From the NCBI RefSeq assembly GCF_019711315.1, contig NZ_CP081294.1:372001-436000 (forward strand): a stretch of DNA of 64,000 nt. The letters are read 5' to 3'. The DNA comes from Qipengyuania gelatinilytica (GTDB lineage: Bacteria; Pseudomonadota; Alphaproteobacteria; Sphingomonadales; Sphingomonadaceae). Positions within the stretch are counted from its first letter, which is position 1, and every line of letters begins with the position of its first letter. The notes under the pieces are model-generated. The model saw nothing but the letters and a program-made list of their open reading frames with translations, was not told where the DNA came from and searched no databases. Shown here piece after piece: positions 52,632 through 55,114 of the stretch. The translations under genes were made by a program, and so were the position numbers.

Positions 52632-53414
52632 ATGGCGAGCGCGCCGAAGCAGCCTCAACTGCCCCTGTTTTTCAACGACCTGATGCCGCTGAACAGCAAG
52701 GACCACAAAAATTTCCGCACCCGTTCGGTCGACAGCGCACCGTGGCTCTCGAAGGCCCACGCCATTCCGCTGACCGTCGACGAGTTCGTGCAGTCGCAGC
52801 GTCACTTCCCGATCGTCTTCTCGAGCGGCGAAAACCCGCTTCCGCTGGCTCTCATGGGCCTCAACGAAGGCGTGAACACCTTCGTCGATGATGCCGGCAA
52901 GGTTACCGAAGCCGTTTACATCCCGGCTTACATCCGCCGCTATCCGTTCATGCTCGCCAAGCTGCAGCAGGACGCGACCGATCTTTCGCTGATGTTCGAC
53001 CCGACCTCCGATGCCGTGGGCGAATTCGAAGAAGGCGAGCGTCTGTTCGACGACGAAGGCAACACCACCGACGCCACCAAGCGCGTCCTGGAATTCTGCC
53101 AGCACTTCGAACAGGCCGCCCAGCGTACGCAGGCTTTCCTGACCGAACTCAAGGACAACAACCTGCTCATGGACGGCGAAGTCGCCATCCAGCGCGAAGG
53201 CGAAGAGCAGCCCTTCATCTACCGCGGCTTCAAGATGGTCGACCAGGAAAAGCTGCGCGAGCTGAGCGACGAAAAGATCATCGAATGGCACAAGAACGGC
53301 ATCCTGATGCTGGTCCACGCCCACATCTACTCGCTCGAACTGATGCGCACGATCTTCGCGCGCCAGGCACAGCAGGGTAAGGCTCCTCAGCCGAACGCCC
53401 AGGCAAGCGCCTGA
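52632..53414 (+). CDS. SapC-family protein
   Basis: The 260-residue protein matches the SapC family: N-terminal LFFNDLMPLNSKDHKNF, then HAIPLTVDEFVQSQRHFPIVFS, and a C-terminal helical region. Despite its name, taken from a Campylobacter surface-array locus, the alphaproteobacterial function is not established. No signal peptide is visible. It is a single-gene unit with its own terminator. A candidate small RNA starts about 120 bp downstream. Confidence 0.85.
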   Translation: MASAPKQPQLPLFFNDLMPLNSKDHKNFRTRSVDSAPWLSKAHAIPLTVDEFVQSQRHFPIVFSSGENPLPLALMGLNEGVNTFVDDAGKVTEAVYIPAYIRRYPFMLAKLQQDATDLSLMFDPTSDAVGEFEEGERLFDDEGNTTDATKRVLEFCQHFEQAAQRTQAFLTELKDNNLLMDGEVAIQREGEEQPFIYRGFKMVDQEKLRELSDEKIIEWHKNGILMLVHAHIYSLELMRTIFARQAQQGKAPQPNAQASA

Positions 53415-53440: not shown

Positions 53441-53449
53441 ATAGCGACG

Positions 53450-53495
53450 AAAAGTGGTGGAATCGCGCCGAGAAGGCCGATTCCGCCACTTTTTC
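53450..53495 (+). terminator. sapC terminator
   Basis: A long stem (5' arm 53450-53465, 3' arm 53479-53495) containing AAAAGTGG and CCACTTTTT closes around an internal loop and ends in a T run. It separates sapC from the small RNA candidate. Confidence 0.85.
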
Positions 53496-53533
53496 TTTGC
53501 TTGAAACGCAGCTGCGCGATGCCCATCTTCAAT

Positions 53534-53638
53534 GTGTCGGCAGCGCTCCCCTCATAGCCTGCCGGCATGGTGCATGAGAGTGCACCAACCTCCCTGAACC
53601 TTGGCCACCTCGTGCGACTTAGCACGGGGTGGTTTTTT
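53534..53638 (+). ncRNA. Candidate small RNA with anti-Shine-Dalgarno-like segments
   Basis: This 105-nt segment has no coding potential and folds into three hairpins. Hairpin 1 is GTCGGCAG (53536-53543) with CTGCCGGC (53559-53566), one G-U wobble, enclosing a loop with CTCCCCTC. Hairpin 2 is GGTGCA (53569-53574) with TGCACC (53581-53586), loop TGAGAG. A single-stranded AACCTCCCTGAAC follows. Hairpin 3 is an 11-pair terminator (53605-53615 with 53622-53632, one G-U wobble) followed by six T. A promoter-like TTGAAA (53501-53506), 17 bp, then CATCTT (53524-53529) lies upstream. The two C-rich stretches could pair with ribosome-binding sites, as in alphaproteobacterial anti-SD small RNAs. A TSS near 53536 is inferred. 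Confidence 0.65.
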
Positions 53639-53665
53639 CATGGGCACGGGGTGGTTTTTTCATGG
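53622..53665 (+). repeat. Perfect 22-bp tandem duplication of the small RNA terminator arm
   Basis: Bases 53622-53643 are repeated exactly at 53644-53665. Each copy holds the 3' arm GCACGGGGTGG, six T and CATGG. The single 5' arm at 53605-53615 could pair with either copy, so the second copy acts as a spare terminator half. Confidence 0.9.
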
Positions 53666-53676
53666 TGCTCGCAAGG

Positions 53677-54573
53677 CTATTCGGCAGCCTGCGGCAATTG
53701 CCCGCGGCTGCCGAGTTCGGCGGTTTCGGAAGCCAGTTTCCTCACCAATCCGGACAACAGCTTGGCAATCGCCGGCTGGCGCGCGCTTTCGCTTTCTAGG
53801 CGTGCATCGAGATAGGTAGCGCGGCAAACCTCGACCTGCATCGCATGGATCCCGCGCAGCGGCGCGCCATGCCGGTCGAGGACATATCCTCCCGAATAGG
53901 GCCGGTTGTGCGCCACCGGCCTTTCCGCCTCCCCGAAATGGTTGAGGGCGCAGGCAATCAGACGGCTGTCGCAGCTTGATCCGAACCGGTCTCCGATGAC
54001 GAATTCCGCCGTCACCTCTTCGGGATGCCTCCGGCGGAGCGGCGGCATGGAATGCAGGTCGATAAGCAGCGCCGCCCCCCAATGGTCGCGCAACTGTTCC
54101 AGCGTCTTGCCAAGCGCCTGGTGATAGGGGCGATGGATAGTTTCGATCCGTTCGTCCAGATCGGTGCGCTCGAGCGGTCTCTTCCATATCTCGCCCAGTC
54201 CGGGCAGGCGGCGAGGAACCAGTCCGAGCCCGCTGCGCGCCCTGCGATTTGCCAGCGAGTGGCGCACCTTCGCAGCTTTCGCACCACGGACCATGGTCCA
54301 ATCGATATCGTCTGGCGCACGGTTGAGGTCGATCACTGCCCTTGGTGCATGTGCCAGCAGCAGGGACGCGCCCGTTTCCTCGGCAATGCTGCGGGCAAGG
54401 CCGTCGACGTGCCTGTCTTCGAGCCTCAGGCGGCTAGCGGGATCACGGAAATTGCCGAGGATCTCATCAGAATAGGCCCGCCCGCCATGCGGCGCTGCAA
54501 TTATTACCGGCAGGGCCGGCTGGTTGGCGATTTCCAGTGTGAATCCCGGTCCATCCATGGTGGCCGCGTCCAT
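53677..54573 (-). CDS. N-formylglutamate amidohydrolase-family protein
   Basis: The 298-residue protein fits the N-formylglutamate amidohydrolase family: APHGGRAYSDEI near the N-terminus, LEDRHVDGLA, the Zn-type His in LIDLHSMP, and DRHGAPLRGIHAMQVEV. The family hydrolyses N-formylglutamate in histidine breakdown or related amides; no other hut gene is here. The ATG at 54573 was chosen; a TTG at 54648 would add 25 residues. It diverges from cpdR. Confidence 0.88.
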   Translation of the reverse strand: MDAATMDGPGFTLEIANQPALPVIIAAPHGGRAYSDEILGNFRDPASRLRLEDRHVDGLARSIAEETGASLLLAHAPRAVIDLNRAPDDIDWTMVRGAKAAKVRHSLANRRARSGLGLVPRRLPGLGEIWKRPLERTDLDERIETIHRPYHQALGKTLEQLRDHWGAALLIDLHSMPPLRRRHPEEVTAEFVIGDRFGSSCDSRLIACALNHFGEAERPVAHNRPYSGGYVLDRHGAPLRGIHAMQVEVCRATYLDARLESESARQPAIAKLLSGLVRKLASETAELGSRGQLPQAAE

Positions 54574-54724
54574 CCCGAGTTGCAGCGAATCATACGGTAA
54601 TCCGCCAAGAATTTGCTTGATGCTGGCCGCTCGGTCGGGGCAAGTCAAAGAAACCGGTCTCGATTAGGGACATTAGTGAACGCGACGGAAGATTTGTTAA
54701 GCCATTTGAGCTAAGGACATGCGC

Positions 54725-55114
54725 ATGAGTGAGCTGCATCAGAAACGAATCCTGCTGGCCGAAGACGACGAGGCCATGCGCACCTATCTCGAGCGCGCGC
54801 TGGCAAATGCCGGGTATTCTGTTGATGCAGTCGATCGCGGTACGTCCGCCCTGCCCCTGCTCGAAGACGATCATTACGACCTGCTGCTGTCGGATATCGT
54901 CATGCCCGAAATGGACGGCATCGAACTGGCACAGCGCTGCAACGAGATCAGCCCGACCACGAAGGTGATGTTCATCACGGGCTTCGCAGCGGTCACTCTG
55001 AAGGCAAGCCGCGAGCAGCCGAACGCCAAGGTCCTGTCCAAGCCGTTCCACCTGCGCGACCTCGTCCTCGAGGTCGAACGCGTACTCGAAGACCGGGTCA
55101 GCGCCCAACTCTGA
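54725..55114 (+). CDS. cpdR: CpdR-type single-domain response regulator
   Basis: The 129-residue receiver domain has Asp14-Asp15, the phospho-acceptor Asp57 (LLLSDIVMPEMDG) and the Lys in LSKPF. It has no output domain. In Caulobacter CpdR, controlled by the CckA-ChpT phosphorelay, primes the ClpXP protease for selected substrates in the cell cycle; the name is given for high likeness in MRTYLERALANAGYSVD and FITGFAAVTL. The ATG at 54725 is favoured over the one at 54719 because AAGGA is then spaced at 7 bases. tRNA-Val follows. Confidence 0.88.
   Translation: MSELHQKRILLAEDDEAMRTYLERALANAGYSVDAVDRGTSALPLLEDDHYDLLLSDIVMPEMDGIELAQRCNEISPTTKVMFITGFAAVTLKASREQPNAKVLSKPFHLRDLVLEVERVLEDRVSAQL

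Follow-up and report, generated by a model that had tools for sequence, protein, structure and literature searches.

A probable small RNA beside the N-formylglutamate amidohydrolase gene of Qipengyuania gelatinilytica, most likely a sphingomonad alphaR8 RNA with an additional C-rich hairpin

The alphaR8 RNAs, which comprise MmgR of S. meliloti, the Rfam family suhB (RF00519) and SisA-D of Caulobacter crescentus, are described in PMC12559287 as present in all Alphaproteobacteria except Rickettsiales, usually in one copy adjoining a gene for an N-formylglutamate amidohydrolase (FGase), and as built of a weak hairpin, followed by UUUCCUCCCU in single-stranded form and by a terminator. According to the same source, the 10-mer of SisA pairs upstream of start codons and several mRNAs are repressed together with Hfq (PMC12559287). 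MmgR is reported to limit polyhydroxybutyrate (PMC8401924, PMC7143759), and SuhB of Sphingopyxis granuli TFA, a sphingomonad small RNA bearing the same Rfam family name, is reported in PMC6563040 to repress thnR in an Hfq-dependent manner. C-rich pairing sites are also known from GsrN of C. crescentus, where the site is a 5' loop, of which the RNA described here has a candidate counterpart; in PMC5869019, predicted GsrN homologs typically lie near general stress genes, and a figure legend indicates no apparent gsrN-like gene in Erythrobacter litoralis.

The locus examined here belongs to a window of 64,000 nucleotides (positions 372001-436000 of a single 2.83-Mb contig, which is chromosome-sized) and occupies the non-coding stretch between sapC (+) and a convergent gene of the FGase family (-), followed by cpdR (+). 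We conclude that a separate small-RNA gene, equipped with a conserved promoter, very probably lies at 53536-53638 (+), and that it is in all likelihood the Sphingomonadaceae ortholog of the alphaR8 RNA (MmgR/suhB/SisA) at its usual site beside the FGase gene. The sequence-only reading from which this analysis started had proposed a small RNA of anti-Shine-Dalgarno character with two C-rich segments, which conservation, covariation and synteny support, and had left its family open; most likely this family is alphaR8 (MmgR, Rfam suhB RF00519, Caulobacter SisA). The features of the locus are as follows.

52632..53414, + strand: sapC gene, the upstream neighbour (Pfam SapC PF07277, 242 bits)
about 53449-53495, + strand: terminator-like hairpin and T-run after sapC (fold z -7.6)
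53501..53506, + strand: -35 box TTGAAA (from the sequence; kept in relatives)
53524..53529, + strand: -10 box CATCTT after a 17-nt spacer (from the sequence; TATCTT-like in relatives)
53536..53638, + strand: probable alphaR8-type small RNA gene, predicted 103 nt (conservation, covariance model R1, fold)
53536..53566, + strand: SL1, the extra 5' hairpin (fold, swapped-arm control)
53548..53555, + strand: C-rich loop of SL1, CCCCUCAU (as DNA CCCCTCAT), candidate first pairing site (fold, conservation)
53568..53587, + strand: SL2, probable counterpart of the first hairpin of alphaR8 (compensatory changes)
53588..53602, + strand: single-stranded linker ACCUCCCUGAACCUU holding the alphaR8 anti-Shine-Dalgarno core CCUCCCU (fold, alignment)
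53603..53638, + strand: intrinsic terminator, hairpin 53603-53634 plus T-run (fold, terminator scan, covariation)
53644..53665, + strand: exact repeat of the 3' arm (22 bp) of the terminator (repeat search)
53677..54648, - strand: FGase family gene, convergent with the small RNA (Pfam FGase PF05013, 213 bits)
54719..55114, + strand: CpdR-type response regulator gene, next after the FGase gene (NCBIfam CpdR 187.9 bits, cut-off 180)

The segment 53536-53638, whose 5' end is predicted (7 nt past the -10 box), folds at -55.2 kcal/mol against -33.6 +/- 3.6 for shuffled sequences (z -6.0), and none of 200 shuffles is as good. The predicted order is SL1, SL2, the single-stranded linker ACCUCCCUGAACCUU and a 13-bp terminator, which bears out the two hairpins, the single-stranded CCUCCCU and the strong terminator seen initially. 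The C-rich first loop and the second C-rich segment proposed at the same time were also recovered, the latter as CCTCCCT at 53589-53595, single-stranded in the fold.

A DNA similarity search with 53490-53665 gave a match in 142 of 199 genomes of Sphingomonadaceae, where the match in one genome (G128) consists of 26 promoter bases only and may be due to chance. In a MAFFT alignment of 30 copies, the best matches of this family search, CCTCCCTGAACCTTGGCC is invariant, the linker part CCUCCCUGAACCUU is without any change, and the linker CCUCCCUGAACC stands out as the invariant single-stranded element of the family copies. In SL2 and the terminator 98.2% of the cells pair and 10 of 20 pairs are changed on both sides, a covariation signal that none of 500 shuffles reached by any of five measures. 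SL1 was not recovered by RNAalifold from the MAFFT alignment, in which its arms are misaligned, and a control with swapped arms was therefore used: over 165 sequences with 149 distinct 5' arms, the own arms of SL1 pair with a mean of -17.8 kcal/mol against -9.7 for arms exchanged between sequences, and 3.2% of the swaps reach the own-arm mean. The helices show the compensatory changes that the sequence-only reading had proposed to look for, directly in SL2 and the terminator and by arm swaps in SL1.

Of 205 loci compared, 199 carried sufficient flanking sequence and a core with no more than 3 substitutions, leaving 177 distinct sequences; 103 of these came from a search that demanded CCCTCAT and the core. 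The 74 others were not chosen by this motif, although they too had been retrieved through their likeness to the window or by the covariance model described below. Among these 74, two hairpins lie 5' of the core in 71, with CCC in the first loop of 68 of them, and of the 74, CCCTCAT occurs in 55 and CCCTTTC in 10 others. In several copies from further families and orders the stretch 5' of the core can likewise form a hairpin, whose loop is C-rich in L097, L109, L127 and L134 but not in L136-L138. In 168 of the 177 distinct sequences an open frame of at least 15 codons begins within the RNA; a small protein encoded there is unlikely, since in the 30-sequence alignment the core is unchanged at all bases, third positions included, and the spacing from loop to core is independent of frame.

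The covariance model R1, built from the 30 family copies with a structure that does not include SL1, has one full match in the source genome (102.4 bits) and matches in 186 of 246 genomes of the order Sphingomonadales, in 25 of 289 genomes of the class (22 of them outside Sphingomonadaceae) and in 5 of 150 genomes of the phylum, four of which belong to Sphingomonadaceae and the fifth to the same class; among the genomes listed, which leave out 40 further unmatched ones, 5 of 21 of the same genus are without an R1 match. One sphingomonad RNA (L187) was found in a record titled Actinobacteria bacterium, which is probably a mislabelled metagenome bin.

As in the described alphaR8 RNAs, the gene adjoins that of a putative N-formylglutamate amidohydrolase (Pfam FGase at 53677-54648), a synteny retained in relatives; with the NCBIfam hutG model this neighbour scores 101.9 bits, under the cut-off of 278.75. 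An FGase gene is convergent downstream of the RNA at 29 of 30 near loci, at 10 of the 14 loci taken from the order's other families and at 20 of 23 further family loci with core, a count that leaves out three fetched loci without core within 4 substitutions (L139 and L140, which have no matching neighbour genes, and L144, whose neighbours are present). It also lies within the fetched flanks at 8 of the 25 class loci outside Sphingomonadaceae. The structural likeness extends to a hairpin just 5' of the core, a single-stranded CCUCCCU and an intrinsic terminator on the 3' side, as indicated by fold and covariation. The RNA differs from MmgR in its extra 5' hairpin with a conserved C-rich loop and in its predicted length of 103 nt, against 77 nt for MmgR.

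The alphaR8 10-mer UUUCCUCCCU reads CAACCUCCCU in the window, with 7 of 10 letters kept, whereas some copies of the same genus share the exact 10-mer with alphaR8; the unaltered 10-mer is present in 13 of the 14 fetched loci of other families and, among the 74 distinct copies of the family, in 6. With RF00519 the window copy went unreported in a 301-base scan and in a scan with the family loci, both at E up to 10, and in a whole-genome scan at E up to 1, and of 35 family copies 14 were reported at E up to 10, 21 failed that limit and 2 exceeded the 41-bit cut-off. The window RNA is thus below the RF00519 cut-off, which is a detection threshold and no biological feature; we have lowered the strength of the alphaR8 claim on account of this miss. 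A gathering scan of the whole window with Rfam returned two tRNAs only, and the Rfam scan proposed by the sequence-only reading placed no family over its cut-off at the RNA, the best being RNAI at 30.9 bits.

These misses, together with the extra hairpin and the different flank of the core, would also be expected if an unrelated small-RNA family had converged on a CCUCCC anti-Shine-Dalgarno linker, a solution that is common, and adjoined an FGase gene by chance. We consider this improbable, because gene neighbourhood and orientation are the same, and because the two models meet in relatives. In the same genus, the copy L141 passes RF00519 (42.0 bits, cut-off 41) and has the exact 10-mer TTTCCTCCCT, and a longer core, CCUCCCUGAAC, is common to the family copies and several RF00519 members. 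Among the matches listed for the order's other families, RF00519 places coincide with 19 of 21 R1 places, 17 of them over the cut-off, the remaining 2 having no coinciding RF00519 place among those matches. Outside the order, at 25 R1 loci from the 22 class genomes not belonging to the family (two of the loci overlap on one contig), RF00519 is found at the same place in 20, over the cut-off in 17, and is absent at 5. The present data show synteny, a conserved promoter and three conserved hairpins, an invariant linker, and continuity of sequence and structure with RF00519. The new element of this probable alphaR8 RNA is its conserved additional 5' hairpin, whose C-rich loop would give an AbcR-like layout with two possible pairing sites. 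Largely missed by the public model, the RNA would bring a large sphingomonad branch, with Erythrobacter, Qipengyuania and Novosphingobium among its members, to a very widely conserved small RNA of Alphaproteobacteria. No description of the window RNA appeared among the listed results of our literature search; an earlier mention, for instance of sphingomonad copies in the 2016 alphaR8 phylogeny (Lagares et al.), is possible.

Membership in the AbcR (alphar15) or alphar14 family is very unlikely. AbcR, which may work alike, forms three stem-loops and exposes a pair of C-rich motifs (PMC5461406, PMC7143759). The first, CUCCCA, sits in hairpin 1, the position of the first C-rich loop in the window RNA; the second, GUUCCC, follows between hairpins 1 and 2 (PMC5461406), whereas the second motif of the window RNA lies between hairpins 2 and 3. 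AbcR of S. meliloti occupies another locus (PMC7143759), its motifs are different, and ar15/AbcR was listed neither for the window nor for the 35 family loci. Rfam ar14 reaches up to 31.5 bits on relatives, but the cut-off of 58.8 bits is not attained and the window copy is without any ar14 match. Gene neighbourhood and linker are those of alphaR8 in both comparisons. GsrN was rejected as the family since its locus is different, and EcpR1 because loop motif and locus differ (PMC4414408).

Since the region lies directly 3' of sapC on the same strand, it could also contain no small RNA of its own and be a sapC 3' untranslated tail or a pair of stacked terminators, which we regard as very doubtful. 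The gene has its own strong hairpin and T-run, separate from the terminator of the small RNA and located upstream of the small-RNA promoter; the RNA core is present at 14 loci of other families of the order with no SapC match in their fetched flanks; and the promoter is conserved. The TTGAAA-N17-CATCTT that had been called promoter-like is present, and the best match to TTGAAA/TATCTT attains at least 9 of 12 positions in 136 of the 177 distinct sequences, compared with 2 of 177 after base shuffling, the consensus having been derived from the same sequences that were scored. A generic sigma-70 promoter scan reported none in the small-RNA region. CTTGAA is similar to promoters of both the heat-shock and the housekeeping type; the strict pattern CTTGAA-N14-19-CYTAT occurs 4 times in the genome against 6 for the control pattern, and the promoter of the small RNA is outside these 4 because it reads CCCAT.

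A plasmid-type antisense RNA such as ColE1 RNAI, the best Rfam match of the window copy (30.9 bits, E 0.00041), can be dismissed almost entirely, as the score is below the cut-off of 47 with pairs of the middle stem broken, only the window copy and one other of the 35 family loci match at E up to 10, and the locus is syntenic on a chromosome-sized 2.83-Mb contig; the match reflects the shared three-hairpin shape. Matches to RNAI, Bp1_781 and SorX were all below cut-off and were set aside as resemblances of shape or motif.

The exact direct repeat of the 22-bp terminator arm (53622-53643 and 53644-53665), noticed from the start, is real and occurs in 1 of the 177 distinct sequences, that of the source genome only. 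Its interpretation as a source of two functional 3' ends is unsupported, the repeat having been seen in the source genome only, the second copy having no 5' arm and the first hairpin forming alone; the preferred reading is a recent local duplication.

As to function, the alphaR8-type RNA would be transcribed from its own promoter and would bind Hfq, which is encoded in the source genome. There, two Hfq domains (L341/L342, G000:C1:288106-288531) lie 48 bases apart in the same frame, each in a 294-codon open frame, and the genome may therefore encode a tandem-domain Hfq. By analogy with SisA in Caulobacter, the exposed CCUCCC could pair with GGGAGG-type Shine-Dalgarno sequences of several mRNAs and block their translation, the conserved C-rich loop of SL1 offering a possible second pairing site, and by analogy with MmgR, SisA and Sphingopyxis SuhB the targets are likely to be metabolic or transport genes tied to carbon supply. 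The genome holds 164 sites of the form GGGAGG-N3-14-ATG, whereas its reversed counterpart is found 59 times, which implies many possible targets. The extended target TCAGGGAGG-N2-12-ATG was found at 21 places in 10 genomes, 7 of which are the small-RNA gene read backwards; the other 14 compare with 16 for the reversed pattern, and no conserved extended target was thus found.

A more speculative reading, which we hold to be rather unlikely, joins these elements: in this family the ancestral alphaR8 RNA would have gained the SL1 site and become a two-site regulator resembling AbcR. With CCUCCC on the Shine-Dalgarno sequence and SL2 looped out, CCCUCAU, complementary to AUGAGGG, could mask a start codon or another G-rich site, and another RNA of RF00519 type in the same genome might have taken over some of the plain anti-Shine-Dalgarno task. 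An AGG second codon did not stand out around the GGGAGG start sites of 30 fetched loci, which leaves the start-codon idea without support so far. The extra conserved loop offers a test case for the acquisition of a second seed by a small RNA.

The source genome does contain a second RF00519 RNA, at L088 1501-1578 (G000:C1:1946910-1946987; 54.1 bits), with a core, AUCCUCUCCCAA, that is unlike the window core and common to L114, L117, L121 and L122; its presence weighs against the assignment of the window RNA to alphaR8. The gene just downstream resembles that of a CDC48-type AAA ATPase. From first hairpin to U-run this RNA measures roughly 60 nt, and because of this length it may correspond to the SuhB of Sphingopyxis, which at 61 nt (PMC6563040) is nearer to it in length than to the window RNA. 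Conceivably, the SuhB that has been studied in sphingomonads is a paralog and not the syntenic ortholog. Repeats rich in TTGC/GCAA (for example TTTCGCACTTGC in L117) were observed upstream of the second RNA in L114, L117, L121 and L122 and might be regulator sites. Outside the order, L077 and L087 carry tandem RF00519 copies about 200 bases apart on one contig. Finally, in L063 (1912-2127) tandem glycine riboswitch aptamers, the second just under the cut-off, lie about 300 bases from an alphaR8 RNA.
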